IMG/VR virus record: IMGVR_UViG_3300047175_000107
Location: 1-21,264 of that record
Direction: 5' to 3' (one strand)
DNA from: a virus
Length of the DNA stretch: 21,264 nucleotides
The stretch's first letter is position 1. Each line of letters opens with the position of its first letter. Shown here in pieces: positions 1-13,726 of the stretch. The notes below the pieces were generated by a model. It made no database searches and was not told the DNA's origin. It saw nothing but the letters and a program-made list of their open reading frames with translations. Both the position numbers and the translations under genes were made by a program.

Positions 1-157
1 CGCGCCTTGGTAGCCGGTGGCACTGGCCGCGCCTTGGTAGCCGGTGGCACTGGCCGCGCCTTGGTCGCCGGTGGCACTGGCCGCGCCTTGGTCGCCGGTG
101 GCACTGGCCGCGCCTTGGTCGCCGGTGGCACTGGCCGCGCCTTGGTCGCCGGTGGCA
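1..157. repeat. 27-bp tandem repeat inside a coding region
   Basis: Five full copies and one partial copy of a 27-bp unit begin at the left edge, so the array probably continues outside the window. The copies are nearly identical. The two leftmost have A where the others have C, which changes Asp to Tyr in the encoded protein. Read on the minus strand, the unit encodes the nonapeptide ATGDQGAAS, and the period keeps the reading frame. Confidence 0.95.
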
Positions 158-522
158 TGCGAACCGTCTTCAAGTGTCGCGTGATCGAACACCCATTTTA
201 TCGCGCGCTGAATCAAGCTATGGAGATGAAATTCAACGCCTATTGTGATCTTGGCTGACGCCATTTTGCTGTCGGACCCTCCACGGTCCAAGACGCCCGA
301 TTGCTGAACCTCGGTATAACGGCTACCTGCCGGCGCGTAGTAGCTTAACACTTCAAAAGGATGGCCAGTGATCGCGTGGAAACCAGATTGGCACGCCTGC
401 ACTTCGCCGTCGTGTTCGTAGGTCTTACCGATTTCGTATTGAAATCCCCGGCATTTCAAGTTGCTGTCATAACCCTTGATGCCGTGAACAACTTCGTTGC
501 TGGTAGCCTCTTGCTCGCTCAT
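1..522 (-). CDS. DUF7666-like protein with 9-residue repeat tail (3' end outside window)
   Basis: The start is ATG at 522 with a GGGAGG Shine-Dalgarno seven bases upstream; 174 codons are visible before the left edge. Residues about 12-115 look like the phage/prophage DUF7666 family: a KGYDSNLKCRGFQYEIGKTY segment, then CQSGFHA, YYAPAGSRY and a DSKMASAKITI strand. From about residue 122 the protein becomes an ATGDQGAAS repeat array. The function of the family is not known to me. The repeat could form a solenoid, which is inference. The N-terminal domain aligns loosely with the three AAxx-tailed proteins elsewhere in the window through the shared pattern C-x2-G-[FL]-HA, then YYAPG or YYAPA. 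It lies 50 bp downstream of the mini-gene string at 573-1029 and may share its transcript. Shadow frames on the plus strand were rejected. Confidence 0.85.
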   Translation of the reverse strand, partial: MSEQEATSNEVVHGIKGYDSNLKCRGFQYEIGKTYEHDGEVQACQSGFHAITGHPFEVLSYYAPAGSRYTEVQQSGVLDRGGSDSKMASAKITIGVEFHLHSLIQRAIKWVFDHATLEDGSHATGDQGAASATGDQGAASATGDQGAASATGDQGAASATGYQGAASATGYQGA

Positions 523-572
523 AGCCGCCTCCCTTGTGCTAAGGCTTACTATATTGCAGAAATCTGCAAGCG

Positions 573-746
573 TCAATCGGAAAGTTGGTTTAACTCGTAG
601 CTAATCACGTCCACTCGATCGAATCGCCGCTCGCTAGCCAGCACGTCTTTACGGGCCTCGTAAGCCTTATCCGGGCAATCGAACACGCCACAAGGTTCCG
701 CGTAGCCGGCGTAATCCCATTCTCCAATAACGACCCAGACTTTCAC
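573..746 (-). CDS. Small phage protein, 57 aa
   Basis: I chose the GTG at 746 because it overlaps the stop of the upstream gene by four bases (GTGA) and has a GGAGG seven bases before it. A longer reading frame exists upstream but would cover the neighbouring gene. The protein begins VKVWVVIGEWDYAGY and has a mixed beta/alpha composition with two Cys (residues 19 and 24). No family is recognised. It is the last of three translationally coupled mini-genes. Confidence 0.7.
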   Translation of the reverse strand: MKVWVVIGEWDYAGYAEPCGVFDCPDKAYEARKDVLASERRFDRVDVISYELNQLSD

Positions 747-856
747 GGGCCGGCCTCCGGGTAATCCTCGCTCATGCAAGCCAGCCAACGCCCCACAAAG
801 AGCGCCACGCCTGGCGATAGGAGCAGCCAGCCGGCAACCCAATACCACCAGGTCAC
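743..856 (-). CDS. 37-aa single-span membrane peptide
   Basis: The GTG start at 856 overlaps the upstream stop by four bases. The peptide starts VTWWYWVAGWLLLSPGVALF, an aromatic-rich hydrophobic stretch long enough to span a membrane once, followed by a short acidic tail (MSEDYPEAGP). Its last codons contain the Shine-Dalgarno of the next gene. The size and placement resemble accessory membrane peptides of phages, but no family is recognised and a holin or spanin role is not supported. Confidence 0.6.
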   Translation of the reverse strand: MTWWYWVAGWLLLSPGVALFVGRWLACMSEDYPEAGP

Positions 857-1029
857 TTGAGATTGTCCCCGCGCGACACCGCTGCCGTGTGCTCGTCGAG
901 CCGGTGCAGATGCGCCCATAGCTCCTGTGCCTTTCTGGCGTGCATAGGGTTGTTTTGGGCAGTGTGTTGCGCCAGCAACGCCACGCATTCGGTCAACGCG
1001 GTAATGCGTTCATCGTCTGTTAAAATCAT
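853..1029 (-). CDS. Small helical phage protein, 58 aa
   Basis: The start is ATG at 1029 with a weak GGGGA eight bases upstream; a TTG seven codons earlier is a poorer alternative. The product starts MILTDDERITALTECVALLA, is predominantly helical and charged, and has no recognised domain. It heads the run of three genes that overlap by GTGA junctions, which suggests coordinated translation. Confidence 0.65.
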   Translation of the reverse strand: MILTDDERITALTECVALLAQHTAQNNPMHARKAQELWAHLHRLDEHTAAVSRGDNLK

Positions 1030-1104
1030 TTTTGTGTTCCCCAACACCAAGTCACTAAAGTCAATAAATAAGACAACTCGGGTATACGTTTAAGAAGCCC
1101 TAGA

Positions 1105-1190
1105 GCCTCCCTTGAGGGTCCCGGAGGCCAATCCGGGTAGTTTCAAGGTGGTGTTCACCCTTACCCGATAGGGCGGCTTGGCCAAACCGC
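1105..1190 (-). other. Structured intergenic segment upstream of mini-gene operon
   Basis: The 190-bp gap 1030-1219 has no gene but several nested inverted repeats: GCCTCC/GGAGGC (1105-1110 with 1123-1128), CGGGTA/TACCCG (1134-1139 with 1162-1167), and GCGG/CCGC (1173-1190). Read leftward this would be a structured leader before the gene starting at 1029. No U-tract follows any stem, so a simple terminator is unlikely. A regulatory leader or small RNA is possible but unproven. Confidence 0.35.
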
Positions 1191-1219
1191 TTTCGCTCGC
1201 GTTGTCTTAATTGTTGACC

Positions 1220-1372
1220 TTACAAAACCCCAATGACCACAAACGCCAAAGCCGACAGAGCAGAGATTGTCCCGAAGAACCACCATTCCTGTCTGTAGGT
1301 CTGGCGCAGGCGGAAGAAACAGAACCAGGCGTAAATGGCCAAAGCAAAGGCGATGATGGAAAAGACGATCAC
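1220..1372 (-). CDS. 50-aa protein with two membrane spans
   Basis: The GTG at 1372 overlaps the stop of the gene at 1369-1596 by four bases. The product has a hydrophobic stretch at residues 1-20 (VIVFSIIAFALAIYAWFCFF), a short charged loop (RLRQTYRQE) and a second hydrophobic stretch at about 30-50. This is a small hairpin membrane protein. The topology resembles small holins, but it lies far from any lysin gene, so that assignment would be speculative. Confidence 0.65.
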   Translation of the reverse strand: MIVFSIIAFALAIYAWFCFFRLRQTYRQEWWFFGTISALSALAFVVIGVL

Positions 1373-1596
1373 GACCGGGCTTCCTCCAACGTCATCTCGG
1401 CCAGCAACTCCATGCAACGAAGTTTGGCCCGAGTATCGCCGCACACCCCGTATACCTTCGCCGCCATCTCGTAATAGCTGGCGCAACGTTCGCCTTCCCT
1501 CGCGTGGCCATTGAGGAACAACGCCCAGCGCCGATCGCCTTCGCGCAAGGCCAAAGCAGCCAAGGCATTCAATTCAGCGGGTGTGAATGCGTCCAC
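1369..1596 (-). CDS. Hypothetical helical protein, 75 aa
   Basis: The GTG start at 1596 is set by a strong GGGAGG about seven bases upstream. The product (MDAFTPAELNALAALALREG at its start) is entirely helical in character, with a paired-helix feel in which Ala, Leu and Arg recur. No family is recognised. It is coupled by GTGA overlap to the two-span membrane protein downstream. Confidence 0.7.
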   Translation of the reverse strand: MDAFTPAELNALAALALREGDRRWALFLNGHAREGERCASYYEMAAKVYGVCGDTRAKLRCMELLAEMTLEEARS

Positions 1597-1677
1597 TAAA
1601 GCCCTCCCTCAGTCCGTTGCGTCCGTAATCAGAAGGCTACCACACTTGCGAAAAACTGCAAACCTAAAATGCGCCTA

Positions 1678-2070
1678 TCAGGGATTAAAAGTGAACCCCA
1701 AAGCATTGACCTGCATAGAGTAGGCGGATTCGCAAGGCGCATAGACGACTTCGGGCACTTCCTCGGCGCCTTCGTCCTCAGACGCCGCCAGCGACAGCCC
1801 CAAGGCAAATGCCTCAAGCTCCTCCCGCACTTGCCGAAGCCTGGCCAGGAGCCTCGGAGAAGCCGCCCTGGCCGTCCCCAAAGTCGCCCGCGCCAAAGCC
1901 CCGGCAGCCGAGGACGACACGCCCTGCGCTATTAGCTGCTGACGCAAATCCAGGGTTGCCTTACGAGCGGTGCGATGCGCAGCCAACTCGGCGTCGATCG
2001 CCAAGCATTCGGCCTCGCATAACATCCGAAGGCGAGCCTGCGCGCTGTCAGACAAGTCATGCGGTTTCAT
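1678..2070 (-). CDS. Hypothetical helical protein, 130 aa
   Basis: The ATG at 2070 lies 14 bp inside the end of the upstream gene (2057-2770), so the two are probably co-translated; a G-rich stretch precedes it. The product starts MKPHDLSDSAQARLRMLCEA and is Ala-, Leu- and Arg-rich with long predicted helices to about residue 95, then an acidic segment (SEDEGAEEVPE). No domain is recognised. Confidence 0.7.
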   Translation of the reverse strand: MKPHDLSDSAQARLRMLCEAECLAIDAELAAHRTARKATLDLRQQLIAQGVSSSAAGALARATLGTARAASPRLLARLRQVREELEAFALGLSLAASEDEGAEEVPEVVYAPCESAYSMQVNALGFTFNP

Positions 2071-2770
2071 CGGGCGCCCCCGGAATAGGCATCCAATGAG
2101 TGGGCGTGTAAGAAAGGCTCAGTGGTGTTACAAACTTATGGTCTACCCAAACCCATGACTTGTCGCGGTCGCGCCACTTATAATCCGCCCATCGCCGTCC
2201 GTTCGCCCACAGGTCTATCGGCCTGTCTTTCGGTGCTGTCTCTATAGGAAGCCAGTCCGTGCTTTGCAGAGCGGTTTTCTCCGGCGTCGGGCGCACCAGC
2301 ACAGACGGCTTTAGCCCGACCTTTATTTTGATCGTGCCGTCGCGCAAATCCGCTAGTGTTATTAGCCGCATTGCATCGGTAGTCCTGTCGTCATTCAGCA
2401 GGACGGCGCCACAACGCACCAGCCGCCACGCTTCGCCCCAGCTAATCGCCACGCCCGCCAACGGCAGCAGCCGAAACAGTGGAATGCCTGCTTCCAACTC
2501 CGCTAAGGATATCAGAGCACTCGGCTGATCATCGCCCTCCCTGTCCGCATCCGCATCCGCATCCGCATCCGCATCCGCATCCGCATCCGCTTGCGCCACC
2601 AGGATTTGACGCAAAAGTGCCGGCGTCTGCCGCAGCCCTTCCGGCAATCCTTCCTCGGGCATGATCGTCTGCATAAAGCCCTCGTGCGCATCCGAGGTGA
2701 CGGCCCAGCCCAAAGTTGGGTGCTCGTCAATCGTTAGCGTGAACCTGGGTGGAAACAGTTTTGATGCCAT
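2057..2770 (-). CDS. Mosaic protein: HicB-like N-terminus, Asp-Ala linker, TyrRS-type S4 domain, DUF551-like C-terminus
   Basis: The ATG at 2770 has GGAGG nine bases upstream. Residues 9-58 (RFTLTIDEHPTLGWAVTSDA) resemble the DUF1902/HicB-like fold, a weak match. Residues 60-76 are a Gln-Ala-Asp run encoded by a hexanucleotide repeat. Residues 94-160 look like the C-terminal S4 RNA-binding domain of tyrosyl-tRNA synthetase: AGIPLFRLLPLAG, EAWRLVRCGAVLLND, TLADLRDGTIKIKVG, then VLVR. Residues 172-233 (WLPIETAPKDRPIDLW, PTHWMPIPGAP) look like DUF551, a short domain common in phage proteins. The S4 domain suggests RNA binding, but no synthetase catalytic domain is present. A TTGACA-type promoter lies upstream, so this may be the first gene of the leftward run ending at 1220. 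Confidence 0.8.
   Translation of the reverse strand: MASKLFPPRFTLTIDEHPTLGWAVTSDAHEGFMQTIMPEEGLPEGLRQTPALLRQILVAQADADADADADADADADREGDDQPSALISLAELEAGIPLFRLLPLAGVAISWGEAWRLVRCGAVLLNDDRTTDAMRLITLADLRDGTIKIKVGLKPSVLVRPTPEKTALQSTDWLPIETAPKDRPIDLWANGRRWADYKWRDRDKSWVWVDHKFVTPLSLSYTPTHWMPIPGAPDETA
2544..2590. repeat. Hexanucleotide microsatellite (TCCGCA)n
   Basis: Seven perfect copies of TCCGCA plus a partial eighth. On the minus strand the unit encodes Asp-Ala, giving the linker between the HicB-like and S4-like parts of the protein at 2057-2770. Gain or loss of units changes linker length without shifting frame. Confidence 0.95.
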
Positions 2771-2797
2771 GGGCTTAGTCCTCCGTGCGTTCGCGTA

Positions 2798-2824
2798 GTG
2801 TTACACGCGGCCTAAAACTGTCAA
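2798..2824 (-). promoter_or_regulatory. Candidate leftward promoter before the S4/DUF551 gene
   Basis: On the minus strand there is a perfect TTGACA (2824-2819) followed after 15 bases by TAACAC (2803-2798). The spacing is short and the -10 is imperfect. It sits about 30 bp upstream of the ATG at 2770, a sensible position. Confidence 0.4.
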
Positions 2825-2868
2825 GCCGCTTTGAGAACATCTTTTAGTAACTATGTCCGACAGCAGGC

Positions 2869-3468
2869 TTATATAAAGCAATCAGGGCGGTTAACATTTA
2901 CCGGCGGGAACACTTTTTGACGCCGCTTCGCTCCGCCCAAGCAATGTAAAGCCGATGAGACTTGCTTGGGTGTCACGCCGAGTGAACGTTGAATGTAGTC
3001 GCGGGAATGCCCGGCGTCGTGCATCTGCTTGATTTGTCTGCACATCGGGGTTGCTGTCTTTGTTGCTGGCGGCAGCAAACCCTTACGCCGGAGGCGCCCC
3101 TCATAGCCTTTGTATTGGGATTTGGTAATCGAGAGGGTGGCGAGGATTTTTTCGACAGGGGTATTCGCTAGGCGTAATTTAAGGAAACGGTCCCTGAGCG
3201 GCTTATTGTAGCCCGTCTGAGGGCGGCCCATGCCGAGGTGGTGGAAGTAGCGGCCCAGGGAGGCGGGAGAGCAGCCGAGGGAGGCTGTCATGACCTTGTA
3301 AAGGGCGCCAGCAGTGCGGAGGGTGCGCAGGGCTGCCCAGAAGGCGGCTGGGCGGCCTCCGATGGTCTCGCCGGCTTCCACGCGCTGCCAGAAGTCCGGG
3401 GTTACATGGTGGGCGCAGAGAGCGGGGCGCGAGGGCGCCTTACAGGGTCCCGAGGGTTTGCGCGGCAT
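2869..3468 (-). CDS. Putative DNA-binding protein with repeated HTH-like segments, 199 aa
   Basis: The ATG at 3468 is preceded only by a weak TAAGAG. The protein is basic (RKPSGPCKAPSRP at the start). Three segments look like helix-turn-helix units: about residues 55-80 (MTASLGCSPASLGRYFHHLG), about 92-130 (LRDRFLKLRLANTPVEKILA, ending in GYEGRLRRKG) and about 143-178 (QIKQMHDAGHSRDYIQRSLG, ending in SSALHCLGG). This pattern is known from phage regulators and from Hin-like or sigma-like HTH arrays. No catalytic residues are visible, so a transposase or recombinase role is not supported. A transcription regulator is the best guess. The gene at 11745-12158 has a similar tandem-HTH layout. Confidence 0.7.
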   Translation of the reverse strand: MPRKPSGPCKAPSRPALCAHHVTPDFWQRVEAGETIGGRPAAFWAALRTLRTAGALYKVMTASLGCSPASLGRYFHHLGMGRPQTGYNKPLRDRFLKLRLANTPVEKILATLSITKSQYKGYEGRLRRKGLLPPATKTATPMCRQIKQMHDAGHSRDYIQRSLGVTPKQVSSALHCLGGAKRRQKVFPPVNVNRPDCFI

Positions 3469-3574
3469 AAAATGCTCTTACTGTGTAATGTGGTGAACTT
3501 TAGACTAACAGGTGGTAGTGCGGGAAGCTTGACATGCTCCCCGGCCTGAAGGCCGAGGGTTCTGAAGGACTGCA

Positions 3575-3814
3575 TCAAGCCGCCCTCCGGATGCTTCGTG
3601 CTTCGTCCGGCCTCTTACCGAGGTGCCCGTCCACACGCTTCAAGGACTCGTCCAGCCCCCGTTGTAGAATAACGATCGCCGCGTTGGTGTCCGCGTTGGC
3701 TTCGTGGCCGCAGCCCGTGCAGACGAACCGGCACGAACCCGCAATCTGCGCCATTTGCTGCGCTTGTTCGGGCGTCGGGTAGAGCCGGTATGTGTTGGCT
3801 TTGCGGATAACCAT
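3575..3814 (-). pseudogene. Internally deleted TnpB, 79-aa open frame
   Basis: The frame starts with ATG at 3814 and reads MVIRKANTYRLYPTPEQAQQ, the usual TnpB N-terminus. At residue 31 (CRFV) it jumps directly to the end of the zinc finger and the RuvC-III region (CTGCGHEANADTNAAIVIL) and continues to a normal TnpB-like end. The RuvC-I Asp, RuvC-II Glu and the first Cys pair are missing. The junction CRFV-CTGC suggests deletion between two similar FV(C/Y) codon stretches, and it stayed in frame. The product cannot be a nuclease. The intact relative is at 15051-16238. Confidence 0.8.
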
Positions 3815-3817
3815 AGC

Positions 3818-3889
3818 CCATATTACAGTTGGTCTATGGCAGATGACAATATCCGCCAATACATCGAACAACAGCGGACGCCCGGATAA
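3818..3889 (+). pseudogene. C-terminal scrap of TnpA (Y1 transposase)
   Basis: The end of the frame reads MADDNIRQYIEQQRTPG and stops at 3889. This matches the typical IS200/IS605 TnpA ending, in which a helix carrying YIE(x)Q closes the protein. Just before it, ITVGL is readable in another frame, as expected for the preceding TnpA strand with a one-base frameshift. The catalytic Tyr and HUH motif are absent. Confidence 0.6.
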
Positions 3890-3990
3890 CCCATGTCGGC
3901 GCGGACGCGCCTGTAACGCCCTTACCTCGGCCTGAACGCCGAGGCTTGCGGGCTTACAGAGAGTCAATGTAATCCCGCGTTATAGTCACG

Positions 3991-4401
3991 TCAGGATTCC
4001 TTTGGCTTGAGGGGAGTGGGTGGCGGCGGGGCGGCGTAAAATGGGGCTTTCTCGTAGTTGGCCAGCCGGGCTTTCAGAAGTTCTATTTCCGCCATCGCCC
4101 GCGCAAACCCTATGTCAGCCACGCTATGCGTCGAGTTGGGTTCACTACGGCGCCTGGTTGCAGCCCTCAGGTGCTTGGCGTGAGCAAACTGTTCCTCCGC
4201 CTTTTCGGTCATGTTCGCCAAAAAGCCTAGTGTGTCCAATACGTGCTTCGGGACAGGAAGGGGGGCTTCGGGTTCCAGCCAGCGATGTATTGACCGAAGT
4301 GAATAGCCGGAAGCGTCGGCTAAAGACGTTTTAGTCCAACGGACTTTGGCTAGCAGTCGAGCAAGGGCCTCACATGGAGTTTCGTTTGTAGGGAGAGCCA
4401 T
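3991..4401 (-). CDS. HTH transcriptional regulator, likely phage repressor, 136 aa
   Basis: The ATG at 4401 has AAGGAA seven bases upstream. Residues about 9-45 (LARLLAKVRWTKTSLADASG then YSLRSIHRWLEP) form a helix-turn-helix of the lambda-repressor/Cro type. The middle is helical (about residues 52-75 and 97-118) and the C-terminus is proline-rich (PPPPTPLKPKES). It faces the rightward genes across a 540-bp control region, and a TTGACA promoter overlapped by an inverted repeat lies just upstream. This layout suggests an autoregulated repressor at a lysis/lysogeny-type switch, which is inference. Confidence 0.75.
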   Translation of the reverse strand: MALPTNETPCEALARLLAKVRWTKTSLADASGYSLRSIHRWLEPEAPLPVPKHVLDTLGFLANMTEKAEEQFAHAKHLRAATRRRSEPNSTHSVADIGFARAMAEIELLKARLANYEKAPFYAAPPPPTPLKPKES

Positions 4402-4422
4402 ATTAACTTTCCTTGTGTTTGT

Positions 4423-4459
4423 ATGGCACTTTTTATGGCTTATACTTGTGCCATGTCAA
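4423..4459 (-). promoter_or_regulatory. Repressor promoter with operator-like inverted repeat
   Basis: On the minus strand TTGACA (4459-4454) is followed after 17 bases by ATAAAA (4436-4431). The perfect 7-bp inverted repeat ATGGCAC (4423-4429) / GTGCCAT (4448-4454) brackets the -10 region, with one arm touching the -35. A protein bound there would block this promoter, as expected for autoregulation. Confidence 0.6.
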
Positions 4460-4480
4460 GCGTGATTGCGTGCTACCTAA

Positions 4481-4507
4481 TTGGCGTTTATTCATTTTGC
4501 GTATAAT
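4481..4507 (+). promoter_or_regulatory. Possible rightward promoter with perfect -10
   Basis: TATAAT at 4502-4507 has TTGGCG at 4481-4486, 15 bases upstream. The -10 is perfect, but the spacing is short and the -35 imperfect. No gene begins within 400 bp, so a transcript from here would first run through the structured segment at 4645-4713. Confidence 0.35.
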
Positions 4508-4612
4508 AGTGCAGCGTTTGGCGCAGTTGTTTACTGTTACGCCGCTTTCAGCGCCAGTTAAGCGTATTTTTACGCAGCATCAGAGTAGGCGGGCATAGTT
4601 ATAAGCCTAAGT

Positions 4613-4639
4613 CAGTGTTAGGACAGTGTTAGGACAGTG
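4613..4639. repeat. 11-bp direct repeat
   Basis: CAGTGTTAGGA occurs twice head to tail (4613-4623, 4624-4634), followed by a partial CAGTG. Short phased repeats in a control region may be protein-binding sites; the function is unknown. Confidence 0.7.
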
Positions 4640-4644
4640 GCGCC

Positions 4645-4713
4645 GGTCGCTGCGACGCATCCATTCTTCTATCCCCGTGCCTGTAGGGCCGGGGTAGAAT
4701 GGTGCTAGCGACC
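4645..4713. ncRNA. Strong nested hairpin, candidate small RNA or regulatory element
   Basis: Outer arms GGTCGCT (4645-4651) and AGCGACC (4707-4713) enclose an inner stem TTCTA-CCCCG-GCC (4667-4681) / GGC-CGGGG-TAGAA (4687-4699), 13 pairs with two single-T bulges and a TGTAG loop. No reading frame uses this DNA. No U-tract follows on either strand. It lies upstream of a TTGACA promoter at 4733. A structured RNA or a DNA cruciform site are both possible. Confidence 0.4.
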
Positions 4714-4732
4714 TATAATTGTGCTTGTCGGC

Positions 4733-4764
4733 TTGACAAACCCTATATCTACTATACATAGTAG
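4733..4764 (+). promoter_or_regulatory. Rightward promoter overlapped by palindromic operator
   Basis: TTGACA at 4733-4738 and TACATA at 4755-4760, spacer 16. The palindrome CTACTAT-AC-ATAGTAG (4749-4764, 7-bp arms) covers the -10, which would suit a repressor site. The next gene starts at 4945, leaving a leader of about 180 bases that is AT-rich and has no supported gene. Confidence 0.5.
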
Positions 4765-4944
4765 GACTTTGTGACGATGGGCAGAATTTTTTATCTTTTG
4801 CGGCTCGCTAACTTTTGTGAAAGTGAATGATATCAATGGTTTACAATTTTGGCGAATTTTTAAGTTGCCCACTGTCACTACCCTAAGCGTTTGTAAGACC
4901 TATGGGCAGCTACATTACGCCCCTGGAATGAATAGGAGTTTGTT

Positions 4945-5772
4945 GTGGGTGTTCTTGGCCGTAAGCCGCTTAATGTGACCGGAAATATATTCTTGGATGG
5001 CCAACTATATCGTTTTGTGGATTTTACCGAACTCACTTATGACCAAACTCTGGTCTTTGCGCCAGGTTTGAACAAATACCGAAAGAGGCGTAAAAATGCG
5101 GTTAAACCGCATGAGAAAGTTAAACTTGTCCAAAGGACTGTGCGGCGATCAATTTGGGAATCCGAGTGCCCTATGTGCCTTAAGCCGTTCACTATAGAAG
5201 TTCCGGTGAACTGGCCTTTTCATTCTCAGACGCCCGTTCGGTATTGCTCTGCACACCGGAACTTGACGCAAGGCGAGAATGCGCGCGTTCACATCGAGAC
5301 AACGATAGTCCGGTTGCTGGACCAGAGTTTGCTGGTTTCGTTGGACCAGATGGCTAAAGCTTTAGGCGTTTCCAGGGTTGACTATGCGCTGCTCGAAACG
5401 CTGAAGAAGCTGAAAAAAGCCAAGTTAGCCTTTTGGCACGGACATTCGTATACGAAGGTGCCTTACAAAGAAGAAGTAGCGCGGAAGATCATGTGTCACG
5501 AGATTGGCCGGCGTGGCCGGATGACGATGGCGGACCTGTATGAATGGTTTGCGGCGCCAAGCACGCTGAAGGAGGCAAAACTGGCGGTTTGGTTTGACGC
5601 GGAATCTGATATAAAGCTTAATAGTGTTCGGCTATTTGTGAATAAGATGCGGGTTTGGGGCTTTATTAAGCGGGACAAGCACACTTATAGCCTCCCCTTC
5701 GATTACGCCATGAGAGACATTGACGATGACGCGCTCCGAATCCGTCTTGCCGCCGAATCCAGGGCCGAGTGA
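4945..5772 (+). CDS. Zinc-finger / winged-helix phage protein, 275 aa
   Basis: The GTG at 4945 is supported by AGGAG six bases upstream. Residues 75-104 hold a Cys2-CysHis cluster (CPMC ... CSAH), likely a zinc site. Residues about 130-160 (SLDQMAKALGVSRVDYALLE) are HTH-like, and about 196-252 (MTMADLYEWFAAPSTLKEA and later MRVWGFIKRDKHTYSL) look like a winged helix. It is the first rightward gene after the control region and overlaps the next gene by 47 bp. The composition suggests DNA binding, such as a replication or transcription factor. No family is recognised. It is more AT-rich than the downstream genes. Confidence 0.75.
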   Translation: MGVLGRKPLNVTGNIFLDGQLYRFVDFTELTYDQTLVFAPGLNKYRKRRKNAVKPHEKVKLVQRTVRRSIWESECPMCLKPFTIEVPVNWPFHSQTPVRYCSAHRNLTQGENARVHIETTIVRLLDQSLLVSLDQMAKALGVSRVDYALLETLKKLKKAKLAFWHGHSYTKVPYKEEVARKIMCHEIGRRGRMTMADLYEWFAAPSTLKEAKLAVWFDAESDIKLNSVRLFVNKMRVWGFIKRDKHTYSLPFDYAMRDIDDDALRIRLAAESRAE

Positions 5773-6331
5773 TGTAGCTCGCTACCGGGCTTTCCTCGAA
5801 AAGGCTGTGGCGAACGCGGAGATTCGCGGCGAACAGAAAGAGCGCATCGCCAACCATATGCTGAAAGAGGCGGAGAAATACCGCGATGAGACATCAAAGC
5901 AGCTAAGGCTCTTTGCCCGGCATACGAATCTCGGAGAGCTAGAGGCCAAAATTCAGGCGAGGGATATGATCCTGCTGCTGGCTGGCTTGGCCAAGGATCA
6001 TACGCTTGACGTGAAGTTCCGCCGGGAATGCGCGAAAGACATCATTGAGCGGGCTATTCCGCTTGCGCCGCAGCGCACGGAAGTCATCACGCCCGATAAG
6101 CTGGAAGCCACCGATGGACGCGCCGGAACCATCATAGACGCTGACATAGAGCAAGCCAGGCTGGCGATGGAGCAGATGGCGGAAATGACCCGTTGCATCG
6201 GCACTCTACCGCCAGACCAATGGCCTCAGTGGCTTCAAGAGAAGGTTGGCAAGGAGGCTATGAAGGCGTATCAGGCCGAGGCGCCTGCTGACCCTTCAAA
6301 TTCGTCTCCGAAGCCCCCCGTAGATCGATGA
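5726..6331 (+). CDS. Possible small terminase subunit, 201 aa
   Basis: The ATG at 5726 (MTRSESVLPP) overlaps the end of the preceding gene; a TTG at 5720 is an alternative, and the Shine-Dalgarno is weak for both. The protein is almost wholly helical: about residues 16-60 (RYRAFLEKAVANAEI, EKYRDETSKQ), then KFRRECAKDIIERAIPLAPQ near residue 100, which resembles the helix-rich core and linker of some small terminase subunits. The C-terminus has WPQWLQEKVGKEAMKAY. It is about 10 kb from the large subunit, unusual for a terminase pair, so a general phage DNA-binding protein remains possible. Confidence 0.55.
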   Translation: MTRSESVLPPNPGPSDVARYRAFLEKAVANAEIRGEQKERIANHMLKEAEKYRDETSKQLRLFARHTNLGELEAKIQARDMILLLAGLAKDHTLDVKFRRECAKDIIERAIPLAPQRTEVITPDKLEATDGRAGTIIDADIEQARLAMEQMAEMTRCIGTLPPDQWPQWLQEKVGKEAMKAYQAEAPADPSNSSPKPPVDR

Positions 6332-6554
6332 CGGCTGTGCTCCGCAAGGAGCACTTCTCACGAAGTGCAGCATTTGCACTGAATAGCAAATCCACGTATT
6401 GGCTGAAAGGAAGCTTTGCCAGGATTGGATCGTTGTCATTGTTTGACGAATAGAAAGCCGTTAGCCGACCTTCATTATAAGACCACACTTGGCTGAACAA
6501 GGCGGTGTTCAGTATGACCTCGCCACCGTTGGATGTGTTCACGACCAAGATCAT
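6258..6554 (-). CDS. Hypothetical protein, 98 aa, 3' end crosses inverted repeat
   Basis: ATG at 6554 overlaps the stop of the upstream gene by four bases (ATGA). Residues 1-62 (starting MILVVNTSNGGEVILNTALF) look like a compact mixed fold. The last 35 residues are encoded by the left 38-bp inverted repeat and by sequence antisense to the convergent gene ending at 6331 (74-bp overlap), so that end may be incidental. No family is recognised. Confidence 0.55.
   Translation of the reverse strand: MILVVNTSNGGEVILNTALFSQVWSYNEGRLTAFYSSNNDNDPILAKLPFSQYVDLLFSANAALREKCSLRSTAVIDLRGASETNLKGQQAPRPDTPS
6334..6371. repeat. 38-bp inverted repeat, left copy
   Basis: Perfect inverse of 6995-7032. Each copy contains two overlapping hairpins: GTGCTCC-gcaa-GGAGCAC and GCACTTC-tcac-GAAGTGC, sharing GCAC, so only one can form at a time. 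The loops are of GNRA type: GCAA on the plus strand and GTGA on the minus strand. Confidence 0.95.
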
Positions 6555-6787
6555 GTTCCATAGCCTTTCATCTGATGCTGCTGCCGGATGCCGAGAACGG
6601 TATTTGCCAAAGCCTCCGCGCTCATGCCAGGATGGTAATTGTGCTTAACCGTGGCGAGCCATCGAAAAGTCGGCCGGAAGCCGTGCTCGTCCACGAGAAC
6701 ACGCATTGCAGAATTTAGCAATTCCAGTTCCGAAGCCGAAAAGCCCGGCGCATTTGCGGAATTGAACCAGAAATAAGCGTGCGGCAT
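6551..6787 (-). CDS. Small phage protein, 78 aa, paralog of the next gene upstream
   Basis: ATG at 6787 has a GGAGA seven bases upstream. The product begins MPHAYFWFNSANAPGFSASE and continues LLNSAMRVLVDEHGF. The pattern WF-x6/7-G-[FL]-S-x5/6-LN-x-A-x-R-x-L recurs in the protein at 6827-6985, so the two are paralogs. The function is unknown. It is coupled by ATGA overlap to the gene at 6258-6554. Confidence 0.65.
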   Translation of the reverse strand: MPHAYFWFNSANAPGFSASELELLNSAMRVLVDEHGFRPTFRWLATVKHNYHPGMSAEALANTVLGIRQQHQMKGYGT

Positions 6788-6826
6788 AAATCAGTCTCCG
6801 TGTTTAACTGTTTGCGTCCAGCGTAA

Positions 6827-6985
6827 TCAAAAGCTGTAGGCTTTGCGCATCTCGGCTAAATCAGCTTCCGATGGTTCGCCGGGTGTAGAAGACAGAAGCC
6901 GAGCAGCAGTATTCAGCACATTGGCGTCTGTCAGACTCAAGCCCTCCGTTTTAGAGGGCTTGAACCAAATCTTAACTGGCGTCAT
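6827..6985 (-). CDS. Small phage protein, 52 aa
   Basis: I chose ATG at 6985 (MTPVKIWFKPSKTEG); the frame extends upstream to 7072, but that part is antisense-like sequence inside the clamp gene and the inverted repeat. No clear Shine-Dalgarno is seen; the start lies five bases after the clamp gene stop, so translation is probably coupled. The pattern IWF ... GLSLTDANVLNTAARLL matches the paralog at 6551-6787. Confidence 0.6.
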   Translation of the reverse strand: MTPVKIWFKPSKTEGLSLTDANVLNTAARLLSSTPGEPSEADLAEMRKAYSF

Positions 6986-6990
6986 TCGTG

Positions 6991-7752
6991 TTAAGCTGCA
7001 CTTCGTGAGAAGTGCTCCTTGCGGAGCACAGCTGCTTCCGCTTTTTCCGATGGCGCAACGCCGCGCGCCCAATCAGGAGCCGATAGGAAGCCGCCTTCCA
7101 CGATGGATGATTCTTTGCCGCCCCGCACCGGCATCAGGACACCCACGAAGTCCTCACGCCCACATTCGATGAACGCCGGCCCGTTGCCTTGCGCGCGCAC
7201 CATCAGGTTGCCCCCATCGCGTTTCTTGCTGCCATTCGCGCTGACCGCGCAGACCTTGGCGAAGATGGCCAGATACGCCGGGCCGAACCACGTTGGCGCG
7301 CTGTCCTTCTCCTCGAAGTAGGGCATCAGGTGGCCATAGTCTGGGAATGTCCCGTCAATCAAGTCCGCGAAGCCCTGCCAGACGGTGAAGTTGGGCGCCC
7401 CGCTTTCCAGGACCTCCAAGGCGTCCTCGGCGCTACCCAGCGCCACGCGGACCATCAACTTGCTGCCCTCGCCTGGAAACAGCCCGAGCCATGCGTTGTC
7501 GTAGCTGCGAAGTTTCTTCAGCGCGGACAGGCAATCGGCCGGAAGCTTGACGATGCGCTCCGCGTCAGTGAAGCCCACATCTTCCTTGAACACGCCGAGA
7601 TAGTGGCCGTTCGTGGCCGCGATGCGCATCCCGCCACCGGGCATTGGTGATAGATGGATGCCGTTCAGGTAGTAGCGCGTCTCCTCGGTGCTGATGAACG
7701 CGCTTGCGAGCATTGCACGGTCAGCGCGCATCATGGTGATAAGTTGGCTCAT
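6991..7752 (-). CDS. Truncated DNA polymerase III beta (sliding clamp) homolog, 253 aa
   Basis: The ATG at 7752 has GGAG eight bases upstream; a GTG at 7761 overlapping the preceding stop is an alternative. Residues about 17-100 match clamp domain 2 (TRYYLNGIHL, AATNGHYLGV, VKLPADCLSALKKL), then DGTFPDYGHLMP, and a compressed domain 3 ending VLMPVRG, equivalent to the MPMRL end of bacterial clamps. Domain 1 is missing (bacterial clamps are about 370 aa) and about 40 residues follow MPVR. It could tether a phage or host polymerase, or act in gene regulation as the T4 clamp does. The 3' end carries the right copy of the 38-bp inverted repeat. Confidence 0.8.
   Translation of the reverse strand: MSQLITMMRADRAMLASAFISTEETRYYLNGIHLSPMPGGGMRIAATNGHYLGVFKEDVGFTDAERIVKLPADCLSALKKLRSYDNAWLGLFPGEGSKLMVRVALGSAEDALEVLESGAPNFTVWQGFADLIDGTFPDYGHLMPYFEEKDSAPTWFGPAYLAIFAKVCAVSANGSKKRDGGNLMVRAQGNGPAFIECGREDFVGVLMPVRGGKESSIVEGGFLSAPDWARGVAPSEKAEAAVLRKEHFSRSAA
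6995..7032. repeat. 38-bp inverted repeat, right copy
   Basis: Exact reverse complement of 6334-6371. It encodes the last residues of the clamp homolog (VLRKEHFSRSAA). The 623 bp between the copies hold three small genes. Confidence 0.95.
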
Positions 7753-7756
7753 CTGT

Positions 7757-7846
7757 TTCACTCCACTTCAGTTGCAGCAAGTTCATCCCAGCCGGCTCGG
7801 CCGCCGTAAAGACTGGCGATTTTGTCCATCGGAATCACTTCGTCCG
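7757..7846 (-). pseudogene. 3' fragment of the GHNKPP-motif gene (duplicate)
   Basis: These 90 bp match 9251-9340 with about six differences and encode the same ending, VIPMDKIASLYGGRAGWDE then LAATEVE. Only the last ~28 codons of the gene at 9252-9692 are present; no start or N-terminal part. The fragment overlaps the end of the gene at 7835-8566, and its stop overlaps a GTG of the clamp gene. It marks a past recombination. Confidence 0.85.
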
Positions 7847-8566
7847 GACCATTTGCACCATCGCTTCCAGACGTGCGTCCTGGGTGCCCCCCGCAGCGTC
7901 CCTCGCAGCGCGCCTCGCAGCGGCATCCGCAGCGGCCCCCGTAGCGGCCCCCGCAGTGGCCCACGCAGCGGCATCCGCAGCGTCCCACGCAGCGTCCCAC
8001 GCAGCGGCCTCCGCAGCGGCCAACGCAGCGTCCCTCGCAGCGCGCCTCGCAGCGGCATCCGCAGCGGCCCCCGTAGCGGCCCCCGCAGTGGCCCACGCAG
8101 CGGCCCCCGCAGTGGCCCACGCAGCGGCATCCGCAGCGTCCCACGCAGCGTCCCACGCAGCGGCCTCCGCAGCGGCCTCCGCAGCGGCCATCAGGTCATC
8201 GCGTCCGGTTTCCAGATACTCCCGGACTACGCTCGGCATGTCCCACAGATGGGCCACGTCCAGGGCACAATGGCGTGCGAACTCACGCAGCACCGTAGTG
8301 GCATCAATACGCCACAGTATGGTCCGCTGACTGCATGTCAGCTTGTCATCTTCCAAGACCACCTTTCCGGTGCAACTGACGCGGCATAGAGTTTCACCAG
8401 AGGCGTATTCTAGCGCGTCAATAAGCCGGACGCTCGCGTGCAGCCCTTGCTTGCACGGGACGATCTCGCCGTCATGGATCAGCGGAACTCCGTCAGCGGG
8501 AATCGGGCGCCCATCAAACAGTTTATCGGCCACGAAATGCCAGGCGAGGATTGGTGCTGCGGTCAT
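7835..8566 (-). CDS. Repeat-tailed phage protein, copy 1, 243 aa
   Basis: ATG at 8566 overlaps the upstream stop (ATGA) with GGAGA seven bases before it. Residues 1-115 form the conserved domain: PILAWHFVADKLFDGR, CKQGLHASVRLIDALEYA, GETLCRVSC, DDKLTCSQRTILWRIDAT, and VVREYLETG. Residues about 125-225 are AAxx repeats (AAWD, AADA, TAGA, AARR) and the end is LEAMVQMVRTK. The first 45 residues resemble the copy at 8563-9246 and the rest the copy at 10121-10864, so the gene looks mosaic. The C-terminus is cut short by the duplicated fragment at 7757-7846. The domain resembles a distant form of the DUF7666-type domain at 1-522. No enzymatic motif is evident. Confidence 0.8.
   Translation of the reverse strand: MTAAPILAWHFVADKLFDGRPIPADGVPLIHDGEIVPCKQGLHASVRLIDALEYASGETLCRVSCTGKVVLEDDKLTCSQRTILWRIDATTVLREFARHCALDVAHLWDMPSVVREYLETGRDDLMAAAEAAAEAAAWDAAWDAADAAAWATAGAAAWATAGAATGAAADAAARRAARDAALAAAEAAAWDAAWDAADAAAWATAGAATGAAADAAARRAARDAAGGTQDARLEAMVQMVRTK
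7893..8190. repeat. 12-bp repeat array with a 132-bp higher-order duplication
   Basis: A run of 12-bp units of the form GCAGCGnCCnnC, encoding AAxx on the minus strand. A block starting at 7893 recurs at 8025, an offset of 132 bp (11 units). The second block has an extra 24 bp (two units). No stop appears in any of several frames, which explains the many false open frames here. Confidence 0.9.
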
Positions 8567-9246
8567 GGTGCTGTCTCCATAGCGCGTGCTGCGTGGACCA
8601 TCGTTTCAAGGCGCGTGTTCTGGGCGTCCCATATGGCGTCCCATGCGGCGTCCCGTGCGGCGGCCCATGCGGCGCCCCGTGCGGCGCCCCGTGCGGCGGC
8701 CCATGCGGCGTCCCATGCGGCGCCCCGTGCGGCATCCCGTGCGGCGTCCCATGCGGCGCCCCGTGCGGCGGCCCATGTGGCGGCCCGTGCGGCGGTCCGT
8801 GCGGCGGCCGATGCGGCGTCCCGTGCGGCGGCCCATGCGGCGTCCCGTGCGGCGTCCCGTGCGGCATCCCGGATAGTATCATCGCCCGTTTCGAGGTACT
8901 GCCGAACGATGTCAGTCATATCCCACAGATGCGCTACGCTCAGCGCGCATTGCCGGGCAAATTCGCGCAGTAGGTCTGTCGCATCCAGCCGCCATACGAT
9001 TGTTCGCTCGCTGCACACAAGCTTGTCGCCCCCATGGACAATATGGCCGGCGCAGCTGACGCGGCAAATCGTCTCGCCCGGCGCGTAATACAGCGCGTCA
9101 AGGATGCGAACGCTCGCGTGCAATCCTCGCTCACACGGGATGACTTTGCCCTTATGAATCAGCGGAACTCCGTCAGCGGGAATTGGTCGGCCATCAAACA
9201 GTTTATCGGCCACGAAATGCCAGGCGAGGATTGGTTCTGCGGTCAT
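8563..9246 (-). CDS. Repeat-tailed phage protein, copy 2, 227 aa
   Basis: ATG at 9246 (MTAEPILAWHF) has GGAG eight bases upstream, inside the last codons of the preceding gene. The conserved domain reads CERGLHASVRILDALYYA, GETICRVSCAG, GDKLVCSERTIVWRLDAT and IVRQYLETG. The tail from about residue 130 is AAxx with a different residue choice (ARDA, WAAA, ARGA), ending NTRLETMVHAARAMETAP. The METAP codons carry the Shine-Dalgarno of the next copy. The first 80 bp are nearly identical to copy 1. Confidence 0.8.
   Translation of the reverse strand: MTAEPILAWHFVADKLFDGRPIPADGVPLIHKGKVIPCERGLHASVRILDALYYAPGETICRVSCAGHIVHGGDKLVCSERTIVWRLDATDLLREFARQCALSVAHLWDMTDIVRQYLETGDDTIRDAARDAARDAAWAAARDAASAAARTAARAATWAAARGAAWDAARDAARGAAWDAAWAAARGAARGAAWAAARDAAWDAIWDAQNTRLETMVHAARAMETAP
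8640..8872. repeat. 12-bp repeat array (GCGGCG-type)
   Basis: About nineteen 12-bp units built on GCGGCGnCCCnT, encoding AAxx on the minus strand. The base choice differs from the arrays at 7893 and 10215 (GTGCGGCG versus CGCAGCG), so this array expanded separately from its neighbours. Confidence 0.9.
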
Positions 9247-9250
9247 TGGC

Positions 9251-9340
9251 TTCACTCCACTTCGGTTGCAGCCAATTCATCCCAGCCGGCTCGGCCGCCA
9301 TAAAGGCTGGCGATTTTGTCCATCGGAATCACTTCGCCCG
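9251..9340. repeat. 90-bp direct repeat, right copy
   Basis: Matches 7757-7846 in the same orientation with about six substitutions. The two copies flank the pair of repeat-tailed genes. Confidence 0.9.
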
Positions 9341-9692
9341 TCTTCAGCACGATCCCGCCGACGTTCTCGGCGTTTAGCGTTTGGCCGTCCGTTGTCTTGA
9401 TTGACCACGCGGCGCCGGCTTTCGTGCTCAAAGTCAAGAGCCATTTGCCGCAGCGCGCGGCGCGAGACAAGCCGATTGCTTTCTTGATCAGCGGCTCATT
9501 GTTTTTCTTGATTTTTTCCGCCGAAGCGATGTCGCGCTTGGCCTGGACGAAAGCCGCGATCAGCGGTTCCATTTCCGCCGGCAGCGTTTGCACGGCTGGC
9601 GTTTCCGTCTGCGCGGGCGGCTTATTGTGCCCGATTGGCGGCGGGGCGTTCGCGGTCAAAGTGATCGCGTTCATGCTGTAGAAGTCAGACAT
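9252..9692 (-). CDS. Phage protein with PIGHNKPP motif, 146 aa
   Basis: ATG at 9692 follows a perfect AGGAGG five bases upstream. Near the N-terminus is PPPIGHNKPP, a motif seen in many phage proteins of unknown function. Residues about 40-75 are helical and charged (FVQAKRDIASAEKIKKNNEP), then comes a compact end with KWLLTLSTKAGAAWSIKTTD and PMDKIASLYGGRAGWDE. The last 28 codons are duplicated at 7757-7846. Its ancestral neighbour was probably the clamp gene, from which it is now separated by two repeat-tailed genes. Confidence 0.75.
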   Translation of the reverse strand: MSDFYSMNAITLTANAPPPIGHNKPPAQTETPAVQTLPAEMEPLIAAFVQAKRDIASAEKIKKNNEPLIKKAIGLSRAARCGKWLLTLSTKAGAAWSIKTTDGQTLNAENVGGIVLKTGEVIPMDKIASLYGGRAGWDELAATEVE

Positions 9693-9722
9693 TGAAGCCT
9701 CCTGTGTGCGTCTGTGAGTAGC

Positions 9723-10121
9723 CTATTGCGTCTCGACGCGGTCGGCAAGTGCTATTTCAGCCTTAACCATGGAATTCCGCACGTCATCAGCCTTCGCAGG
9801 CGGCCGGCCGATTTCCCAGCCTTTTAACGTTGCGACCGGAACGCCGAGCAAAGCCGCTGCCTCAGTCTGAGACAGATTGAACCTGGCCCGCCAAGCCTGC
9901 ATCTCGGCCTTAAACGGGCACACCTGACGCCGGTAGTCCGCTTTGCCGCCCGTATGCGCCAGAACCCGCGCGTAGTCCCTGCAAGCCTGTCCTGACAGCC
10001 ACAATGCCAAAGTAGACTGCGGCACGCCCAAAGCCTCTGCCGCCTGATGCTGCGTCAGTTTGTGCTTTGCCAGCCAGACTTTCAGGGCGCGGCTTATCGG
10101 CTTTCCGGGCGCGTGTTTCAT
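9723..10121 (-). CDS. Tandem HTH_XRE regulator, 132 aa
   Basis: I chose ATG at 10121, which shares one base with the upstream stop (TAATG) and has GGAG seven bases before it; the longer frame upstream is repeat DNA. Two helix-turn-helix units are visible: residues 12-48 (LKVWLAKHKLTQHQAAEALG, then VPQSTLALWLSG) and 74-110 (MQAWRARFNLSQTEAAALLG, then VPVATLKGWEIG). Each has the lambda-repressor/XRE form, with Q-x3-A-x2-LG-V. Two units in one chain could bind two half-sites without dimerising. The palindromes upstream of the operon (10943-10962) are candidate targets. Confidence 0.8.
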   Translation of the reverse strand: MKHAPGKPISRALKVWLAKHKLTQHQAAEALGVPQSTLALWLSGQACRDYARVLAHTGGKADYRRQVCPFKAEMQAWRARFNLSQTEAAALLGVPVATLKGWEIGRPPAKADDVRNSMVKAEIALADRVETQ

Positions 10122-10864
10122 TAGCCATCTCCGCTTACCATCCGGCCCTTGGCGGTGGCTTCCGCCTTGGCCCGGACCATTTGCACCATTGCTTCCAGGG
10201 TGGTATTCTGGGCGGCTTCCGCAGCGGCCTTCGCAGCGGCCTTCGCAGCGGCCTTCGCAGCGGCCCCCGCAGCGCCCCGCGCAGCGCCCCGCGCAGCGTC
10301 CCACGCAGCGGCCCCCGCAGCGCCCCGCGCAGCGCTTCGCGCAGCGCCCCACGCAGCGGCCATCGCAGTGGCCCACGCAGCGGCATCCGCAGCGTCCCAC
10401 GCAGCGGCCCGCGCAGCGTCCCACGCAGCGTCCCACGCAGCGGCCCGCGCAGCGTCCCACGCAGCGGCCCCCGCAGCGTCCCTCAAGGCTTCATTCCCGG
10501 TCTCAAGATACTCCCGAACGACGGCTGGCATGCTCCACAGATGGGCCACGTCCAGGGCACACTTACGGGCGAACTCACGCAGCACCGGGGTGGCATCAAT
10601 GCGCCACAGTATGGTCCGCTGACTGCATACCAGTTTGTCGTCTTCGAGGGCCACCTTTCCAGTGCAGCTAACGCGGCATAGGGTTTCACCAGGGGCGTAT
10701 TCTAGCGCGTCAATAAGCCGGACGCTCGCGTGAAGACCTGCCTGGCACGGGATAACTTCACCTCGATGGATCAGTGGCTTACCATCCGGCGGGACTGGCC
10801 GGCCGTCTCGCAGGGTTGCGCCTACGAAATGCCAGGCAAGGATGGGGGTTGCTGCGATGTCCAT
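10121..10864 (-). CDS. Repeat-tailed phage protein, copy 3, 247 aa
   Basis: ATG at 10864 (MDIAATPILAWHF) has GAGGAA seven bases upstream; ATG at 10879 would cover that site. The conserved domain has CQAGLHASVRLIDALEYA, GETLCRVSCTG, DDKLVCSQRTILWRIDAT and VVREYLETG. Residues about 122-215 are AAxx repeats (AAWDAARA, AAGA, then AKAA four times) and the end is NTTLEAMVQMVRAKAEATAK plus a short basic tail. It appears to be the first gene of the leftward operon reaching 6258. The tail of this copy has the intact C-terminal cap that copy 1 has lost. Confidence 0.8.
   Translation of the reverse strand: MDIAATPILAWHFVGATLRDGRPVPPDGKPLIHRGEVIPCQAGLHASVRLIDALEYAPGETLCRVSCTGKVALEDDKLVCSQRTILWRIDATPVLREFARKCALDVAHLWSMPAVVREYLETGNEALRDAAGAAAWDAARAAAWDAAWDAARAAAWDAADAAAWATAMAAAWGAARSAARGAAGAAAWDAARGAARGAAGAAAKAAAKAAAKAAAEAAQNTTLEAMVQMVRAKAEATAKGRMVSGDG
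10215..10490. repeat. 12-bp repeat array (GCAGCG-type)
   Basis: About 23 units of 12 bp encoding AAxx on the minus strand. Three or four units near 10225-10260 are almost identical (GCCTTCGCAGCG), a sign of recent expansion. Confidence 0.9.
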
Positions 10865-13645: not shown

Positions 13646-13725
13646 TGACGGCGTTCATTGTCATCTGGCTAGGGGTTGTGTTCCTTTTGGTCATTGACGC
13701 GGTGCTGGGTAACAAAAGCCACTAG
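13645..13725 (+). CDS. 26-aa single-span membrane peptide
   Basis: ATG at 13645 shares one base with the previous stop (TGATG). The peptide is MTAFIVIWLGVVFLLVIDAV followed by LGNKSH, nearly all hydrophobic with a short polar end. It is too short for most gene callers. The coupled start supports it. Confidence 0.5.
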   Translation: MTAFIVIWLGVVFLLVIDAVLGNKSH

Positions 13726-13726
13726 T

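Follow-up and report, generated by a model that had tools for sequence, protein, structure and literature searches.

The closest described relatives of the proteins studied here belong to the Pfam family DUF7666 (PF24703) and to phrog_4433, of which gp53 of Enterobacteria phage ES18 is an example, with a DUF7666 head joined to an array of nonapeptide repeats. Nonapeptide DUF7666 genes are widespread in phages and uncharacterised. The same head also carries pentapeptide repeats, as in a protein of Rheinheimera Barba phage (DUF7666 plus Pentapeptide_2) with an NTGxx array, and DUF4116 repeats; ankyrin repeats accompany it by structural match only. Intragenic tandem repeats whose number varies between strains have been reported for hyvI and hyvII of Ca. 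Liberibacter asiaticus prophages (PMC3708911). In open-licence PubMed Central papers, we found no description of hypervariable residue pairs in DUF7666 proteins.

The DNA analysed here, positions 1 to 21,264 of IMG/VR record IMGVR_UViG_3300047175_000107 (the window, 21,264 nucleotides), encodes four such proteins, all on the minus strand. Four related proteins had been expected at these places from the sequence alone, and both the ORF positions and the Pfam search bear this out: all four exceed the curated DUF7666 cut-off of 27 bits, and all four contain the C-x2-G-[FL]-HA and YA motifs on which the expectation was based. The four genes, their parts, and their neighbors are as follows.

1 to 522, minus strand: DUF7666 protein 1, nonapeptide class, phrog_4433-like, truncated by the contig end (Pfam 2.8e-31; phrog_4433 2e-69)
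208 to 489, minus strand: head of protein 1 with K-G, C-x2-GFH, and D-S-K motifs (profile match coordinates; motifs)
1 to 157, minus strand: 27-bp array of ATG[DY]QGAAS units, running off the contig (TRF period 27, 5.8 copies, 99%)
6991 to 7761, minus strand: sliding-clamp-like/RusA-like replication protein, downstream of the cluster (phrog_3007 1.4e-18; phrog_947 2.6e-11)
7835 to 8566, minus strand: DUF7666 protein, AAxx class, copy A (Pfam 6.1e-8)
8285 to 8479, minus strand: DUF7666 head core, copy A (profile match coordinates)
7888 to 8189, minus strand: 12-bp AAxx array, copy A (TRF, 25.2 copies)
7835 to 7887, minus strand: cap RLEAMVQMVRTK, copy A
8563 to 9246, minus strand: DUF7666 protein, AAxx class, copy B (Pfam 7.2e-10)
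8965 to 9159, minus strand: DUF7666 head core, copy B (profile match coordinates)
8623 to 8871, minus strand: AAxx array, copy B (TRF, 20.8 copies of 12 bp; also period 36)
9252 to 9692, minus strand: ORF X, upstream of copy B, 3' end duplicated downstream of copy A
9723 to 10037, minus strand: HTH protein between copies C and B, a possible operon partner (Pfam HTH_3 1.4e-8)
10121 to 10864, minus strand: DUF7666 protein, AAxx class, copy C (Pfam 1.7e-8; AlphaFold2 mean pLDDT 88)
10577 to 10789, minus strand: DUF7666 head core, copy C (profile match coordinates)
10220 to 10482, minus strand: AAxx array, copy C (TRF, 21.9 copies)

Protein 1 is a member of DUF7666 and phrog_4433 with the same head and array type as ES18 gp53; its phrog_4433 match spans residues 4 to 174, array included, and the other three proteins match this group weakly. 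The repeats are not due to chance, given a 27-bp array with 99% matches in protein 1 and 12-bp arrays of about 21 to 25 copies in the others. Within each AAxx array the Ala codons are near-invariant (GCT GCG or GCC GCA) and the two x codons vary. The array of copy A contains an internal block duplication about 120 to 130 bp apart (7892 to 8069 against 8024 to 8189 by self-BLAST), the stop of copy B and the start of copy A overlap by 4 bases, and the duplicated 3' end of ORF X (7749 to 7846 against 9243 to 9340) is 91% identical. The original prediction of a head, a repeat tail, and a cap holds for the AAxx copies; in protein 1 the contig ends inside the array and the cap is not seen, and complete relatives of this protein have a conserved C-terminal domain after the array. 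The window also encodes a YspA/SLOG protein. SLOG is one among the ADP-ribose-network families discussed in PMC9503650, and its co-occurrence with DUF7666 was seen in a single record. No reverse transcriptase, as would be expected beside the target of a diversity-generating retroelement, was found among the ORFs scanned.

How are the two classes related? The AAxx and nonapeptide heads are homologous by hhalign (E-value of 5e-13) at an identity of only ~26 to 31%, and with the shared Pfam family this places protein 1 among the relatives of the AAxx proteins. In the tree the two head types form separate clades, each with a constant tail type, and they are ancient sister clades. Rapid swapping of the tail type can be rejected because the tree needs one change only (support 100/100). 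The idea of fast-changing tails thus applies to the length of the arrays and to the order and content of their units, and not to tail type. The view that several tail types in one phage are unusual is supported: among 48 records compared, many of which are fragments, both types occur only in this window. Elsewhere, multiple AAxx copies are found in G008 (two) and in G035 and G036 (three each). AAxx members had no detectable match in isolate phages, and the head of the Emek member had none among E. coli genomes. Eighteen diverse AAxx proteins were too variable for their alignment to be used in scanning. One candidate for a tail-less relative, L185, was discarded, as its available sequence stops beside the expected start of the array.

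Both heads were modelled with an ADP-ribosyltransferase (ART)-like fold, and two separately built models had the same structural neighbors, namely, BC2332, Arr, Tpt1-type phosphotransferases, and PARPs. The matching structures were mostly from the ART superfamily, with best Z scores below 8: the AAxx head reached 7.8 against BC2332 and 5.2 against Arr, and the nonapeptide head reached 7.1 and 6.0. Foldseek alone gave no significant match in the PDB, and no PDB relatives were found by sequence. A likeness to rifampin ADP-ribosyltransferase had also been noted, independently, in the annotation of Acinetobacter phage fEg-Aba01. AAxx heads have H10 in 24 of 28 sequences and H43 in all 28, and nonapeptide heads have K15 and H48, both in 21/21; these residues may correspond to ART active-site positions (H-H-h, H-Y-[EDQ], or R-S-E clades). 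As the two head clades do not have the same putative active-site residues, at least one head may be inactive. AlphaFold2 predicts the AAxx tail as two long helices. The nonapeptide tail is instead predicted as a YadA-like beta-roll with a strand every 9 residues (Z score of 6.4 against EibD), in a model with pLDDT values of ~37 to 63 over residues 111 to 180 and mostly 72 to 87 beyond. The models would therefore place unrelated tail folds on homologous ART-like heads.

Variation in the arrays sits mainly at two positions of each unit. The original prediction had missed this focus, as well as the wide spread of nonapeptide DUF7666 proteins in phages and the further repeat types on the same head. 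Residue-pair diversity is 0.49 against 0.04 at fourfold sites in nonapeptide arrays, with the excess present in 52/52, and 0.39 against 0.06 in AAxx arrays (16/16), so that in both classes the two variable residues of each unit exceed fourfold synonymous sites in diversity by a factor of ~6 to 12. In the best-resolved arrays, the unit types are distinguished almost solely by the two variable codons. Among complete genes, 93 pairs have heads more than 97% identical, and in none of these pairs are the arrays identical; a 57-bp unit duplication separates two AAxx contigs with an identity of 99.93% over 5.4 kb. Array length and residue choice thus both differ across close relatives, the comparison that had been proposed as a check. 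Complete arrays span 3 to 30 units, a range that lends no support to a ruler or spacer. Behind identical heads, complete genes carry 7 versus 27 or 7 versus 17 units, although repeat numbers from short-read records may be underestimates. An array is found in nearly every complete member seen. The NTGxx pentapeptide array of Rheinheimera phages likewise has an excess of non-synonymous change. Such an excess in repeats of three different periods under one head family is difficult to account for unless surface diversity itself is selected. One array gene is matched at an identity of at least 99% by 110 of 115 Rheinheimera isolates, which makes assembly error an unlikely general cause of array differences; the near-constancy of the arrays in these isolates, from one host, also indicates that diversification is not very fast. 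As judged from the sequences, the heads are homologous, the arrays turn over, and non-synonymous variation is focused on two residues per unit.

In annotated relatives, DUF7666 genes lie in early or replication regions. In the P_L early operon of ES18, gp53 comes right after N and before cIII, and the Emek member occupies the same place; nonapeptide members of Pseudomonas and Acinetobacter phages lie near CI, and AAxx genes neighbor a T7-like RNA polymerase and a gp2.5-like SSB, Sak4/RusA, or a helicase. Our preferred reading, which we put forward tentatively and at somewhat less than even odds, is that these are early host-takeover or counter-defence proteins in which a constant ART-like head is combined with a selectively diversified binding array and a cap. 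The head would supply an activity, either NAD/ADP-ribose chemistry, an option for AAxx heads if their H...H pair corresponds to the leading H-H of the H-H-h clade, or nucleotide or protein docking, an option for the K...H of nonapeptide heads. From each repeat, the solenoid or helical array would display two variable residues, which would form a binding surface that can be exchanged, with the cap closing the array. Arrays would evolve as units are gained, lost, and shuffled in frame, with the diversity of the residue pairs kept up by selection. The reshuffling of tails on a constant front, seen across many phages, suggests a changeable surface for interfering with bacterial hosts. We infer binding of host or defence targets by the array, an arms race that its diversity follows, and an activity of the head.

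Alternatively, the protein may be recognized by a host or rival-phage factor, and the array could be an evasive surface that varies to escape it, with the conserved function left to the head. Bacterial defence may be triggered by phage proteins that are expressed early, and the same diversity data (no shared arrays and an excess of residue-pair variation) are consistent with evasion. However, evasion does not require a restricted alphabet, yet N, Y, or D usually occupies position 1, where His, although one base away from each, is absent; moreover, nearly every complete member seen keeps the array. We consider this explanation unlikely, and equally so the view that the array is structural filler, a spacer or solubility rod with mostly neutral turnover, in which loop or surface positions are the only permissive ones. 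The very broad range of unit numbers suggests that length hardly matters, and slippage is common in repeat DNA, but neutrality predicts synonymous variation at least equal to non-synonymous variation, the opposite of what the fourfold sites show, and in the best-resolved arrays the unit types differ almost solely at two codons. A secreted or virion adhesin-like fibre with a YadA- or collagen-like tail is very improbable: the nonapeptide tail resembles the trimeric adhesin EibD and there are weak matches to tail-fibre PHROGs, but the complete relatives L005 and L010 have no Pfam translocator or C-terminal membrane anchor, and the P_L position argues for an early protein. A collagen-like tail was rejected, as the Pfam score is 19 bits against a cut-off of 27.2 and in every third residue triplet Ser stands in place of Gly, which breaks the G-x-y period. 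Least credible of all is a ruler or scaffold, among the roles first suggested, that would set a fixed length as tape-measure proteins do, since for all its regular rod between conserved head and cap, array length differs behind identical heads and the genes lie outside the virion module.

Should the arrays serve as binding surfaces, a natural variant library with constant heads is already at hand in hundreds of phage and prophage sequences, and the recognition partner of the array is directly testable. If our preferred reading is right, an ART-like domain would also have a part in the early arms race of temperate phages. More doubtful is the broader idea that DUF7666 proteins are virus-wide combinatorial recognition proteins, in which an ART-like head sits on unrelated scaffolds (nonapeptide beta-roll, NTGxx pentapeptide, AAxx helix, DUF4116, and ankyrin) and a small residue alphabet is recombined to reprogram the host or defence target, which might then be modified.

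In comparison with known systems, Arr and tRNA 2'-phosphotransferase of the ART superfamily are predicted fold neighbors of both heads, but there is no sequence match and the putative active-site residues are not alike in both clades. Like the head beta-roll of YadA and EibD, the nonapeptide tail has short Ala/Ser/Thr/Gly repeats predicted as stacked strands, whereas for the nonapeptide proteins no membrane anchor was found, the 9-residue units have two hypervariable residues each, and the genes are early phage genes. In contrast to the DUF7666 arrays, hyvI and hyvII have long, leucine-rich, near-identical units and are reported autotransporters, with no DUF7666 head reported (PMC3708911). The period of 5 that defines pentapeptide repeat proteins is found in the Barba relative and not in the window tails, with periods of 9 and 4. 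The Barba array is near-constant in the 115 isolates, but its residue pairs (NR, NQ, NW, DW, DQ, DR, and YW) draw on a similar alphabet. TAL effectors read DNA with 34-residue helical repeats that carry repeat-variable di-residues; we claim no homology, and the analogy lies in a repeat framework that is constant except for two residues of each unit.

The window, a linear IMG/VR virus record of 21,264 bases, has terminase, portal and glycosyltransferase genes on its + strand and four DUF7666 genes on its − strand:

1-522, −, protein 1, nonapeptide array
7835-8566, −, copy A, AAxx array
8563-9246, −, copy B, AAxx array
10121-10864, −, copy C, AAxx array

All four proteins exceeded the Pfam DUF7666 cut-off, in agreement with the common N-terminal domain (head) of the original prediction. 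The array of protein 1 has a period of 27 bp with 99% matches and runs off the contig end; those of copies A to C have a period of 12 bp and about 21 to 25 copies each. The conserved cap proposed to follow the AAxx arrays was likewise found, as RLEAMVQMVR, RLETMVHAAR or TLEAMVQMVR and then a short tail. Copy A is 80% identical to copy C and 71% to copy B in DNA. The 3′ end of the ORF upstream of copy B (9252-9692, −) is duplicated downstream of copy A (7749-7846 versus 9243-9340, direct, 91% identity, flanking copies A and B) and is, judging by the sequence, the scar of a local gene duplication.

Profile-profile comparison joined the nonapeptide and AAxx heads (E 5e-13, 91 columns). A single change with support of 100/100 splits the two in a tree of 49 heads, so tail type is an old and stable trait of the head clade. 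The window combines one nonapeptide-clade member with three recent AAxx paralogues; a Pfam profile search of 48 records, this one included, gave no other with both tail types. Another virus record (L087, 4920-9009) has three AAxx-class DUF7666 genes with a different linker before the array, DPRSIAAIAVKRRW in two of the three. The AAxx array is not confined to a single kind of protein: in L027 it follows an unrelated head (phrog_18326; 64% identity over 28 residues of linker). Other DUF7666 heads carry Pentapeptide_2 (Rheinheimera phage Barba1A) or DUF4116 (Lactobacillus phage SAC12B). Foldseek against predicted viral structures matched giant-virus DUF7666 proteins and giant-virus ankyrin-repeat proteins (E-values from 0.0085 upwards), the latter a structural lead only.

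The arrays change fast relative to the heads, as had been predicted. Nonapeptide-class heads are encoded by at least 579 stretches in IMG/VR, and among 49 complete genes none of the 93 pairs with heads more than 97% identical in DNA had the same array. In Pseudomonas phages YA3 and Flu_PA14_4, whose heads are 99.4% identical, the arrays differ in order, and two AAxx contigs (L071, L072; 99.93% identity over 5.4 kb) differ by a 57-bp in-frame duplication within the array. Multi-unit blocks recur beyond shuffling in some long arrays (L034, L035, L103) and not in others. However, 115 Rheinheimera phages of one host provide counter-evidence on speed: their array gene is nearly constant (110/115 are at least 99% identical), and length variants of 15 bp are rare. 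Many contigs (L004, L006, L007, L067, L071, L072 and many others) stop inside or just before the array, so truncation of these genes is systematic in metagenome assemblies. In three isolate phages (Emek, fEg-Aba01, TC7) the reading frame shifts at the array or within it, and the array, the cap or both can still be read in another frame, reflecting either phase variation or sequencing error:

L029, 2498-3086
L030, 2492-3079
L033, 2495-3469

Units within one array are nearly identical in DNA save for two codons, the only ones to differ among AASNTGNRS, AASNTGYQS and AASNTGDYS of L034. Mean diversity was 0.49 at variable positions versus 0.04 at fourfold sites in the nonapeptide arrays (52/52), and 0.39 versus 0.06 in the AAxx arrays (16/16). 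The nonapeptide arrays include related phages and hence are not independent, so their P value cannot be read literally; the AAxx arrays are a more diverse set, whose members are for the most part 42-74% identical to the first protein. Variable position 1 is mostly D, Y or N, and His in no unit. Pooling distinct units of all arrays gave 2160 differences within the residue pair versus 1721 non-synonymous and 577 synonymous outside, part of which come from end units and from the alternation of unit types; because of these outside differences the concentration in the pair, though strong, is not absolute. The Barba NTGxx array behaves similarly (0.48-0.58 at main variable sites versus 0.08 at the third positions of the N, T and G codons) and shares the pairs NR, NQ, NW, DW, DQ, DR and YW with the nonapeptide set.

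Relatives of the gene occupy early positions. ES18 gp53 lies within an annotated early-left operon (P_L, nutL, an N-like gene, gp53, then cIII and kil), Emek has the same gene order, and nonapeptide members of Pseudomonas and Acinetobacter phages are close to CI. AAxx genes are close to a T7-like RNA polymerase and gp2.5-like SSB (L066), RusA and Sak4 (L068) or a helicase (L073); in L066, an Asaia prophage, the polymerase is divided between two adjoining ORFs (2291-4894). Among bacterial genomes the family occurs sporadically (2/249 of the Asaia family and 3/398 of its phylum), as expected for prophage genes. Relatives occur in Acetobacteraceae genomes (Asaia; L185, 68/119 residues identical to the protein 1 head), which suggests an alphaproteobacterial host.

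The best fit is a host-directed protein made early, in which a constant head, predicted to be ART-like (ADP-ribosyltransferase), is joined to a selectively diversified array. The data show the homology of the heads, the turnover of the arrays, the bias towards non-synonymous change and the early location in relatives, and the folds are predicted. We infer a binding role for the array, its target class and the activity of the head. The array could possibly be a neutral rod or an evasive surface, or the protein an adhesin. The molecular ruler of the original prediction does not fit, as complete arrays range from 3 to 30 units (49 complete genes with measurable arrays).

The window has further features:

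15051-16238, −, full-length TnpB-like protein (OrfB_IS605, Cas12f1-like TNB, HTH), just upstream of the terminase gene
3575-3967, −, TnpB relic, N-terminal HTH fused to the C-terminal zinc-finger part, middle absent
13718-14149, +, YspA/SLOG family protein (PF10686, 2.6e-17)
2544-2590, error-free hexamer TCCGCA x7.8, which ORF 2057-2770 translates as an Asp-Ala repeat

No TnpA partner for the TnpB-like gene was identified among the window ORFs examined; the relic is, by its domain makeup, a second TnpB copy with an internal deletion. YspA/SLOG is an ADP-ribose-network family, and the phage that encodes this member also carries the ART-like heads.

For the AAxx protein, the model (mean pLDDT 88) predicts a head of alpha/beta type, a pair of short helices and, over the array, a pair of long ones whose connecting turn has low confidence. 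The nonapeptide model, built for the relative L008 since the window copy is cut (mean pLDDT 71), predicts one strand per nine residues and a beta cap; the structures closest to its tail are EibD and cyclase-associated protein. Both modelled heads are closest to BC2332, Arr, tRNA 2′-phosphotransferase and PARPs, and an ART fold is likely but not proven, because the Z scores are middling (best 7.8). Conserved residues are H10 (24/28), H43 and R81 (28/28) and D74 and K75 (27/28) in AAxx heads, and K15, H48, D82-x-K84 and E95 (each 21/21) in nonapeptide heads. ART clades are distinguished by their active-site residues, H-H-h, H-Y-[EDQ] or R-S-E (PMC9503650), and profile alignment of the heads places K15 of the nonapeptide class with H10 of the AAxx class, and H48 with H43.
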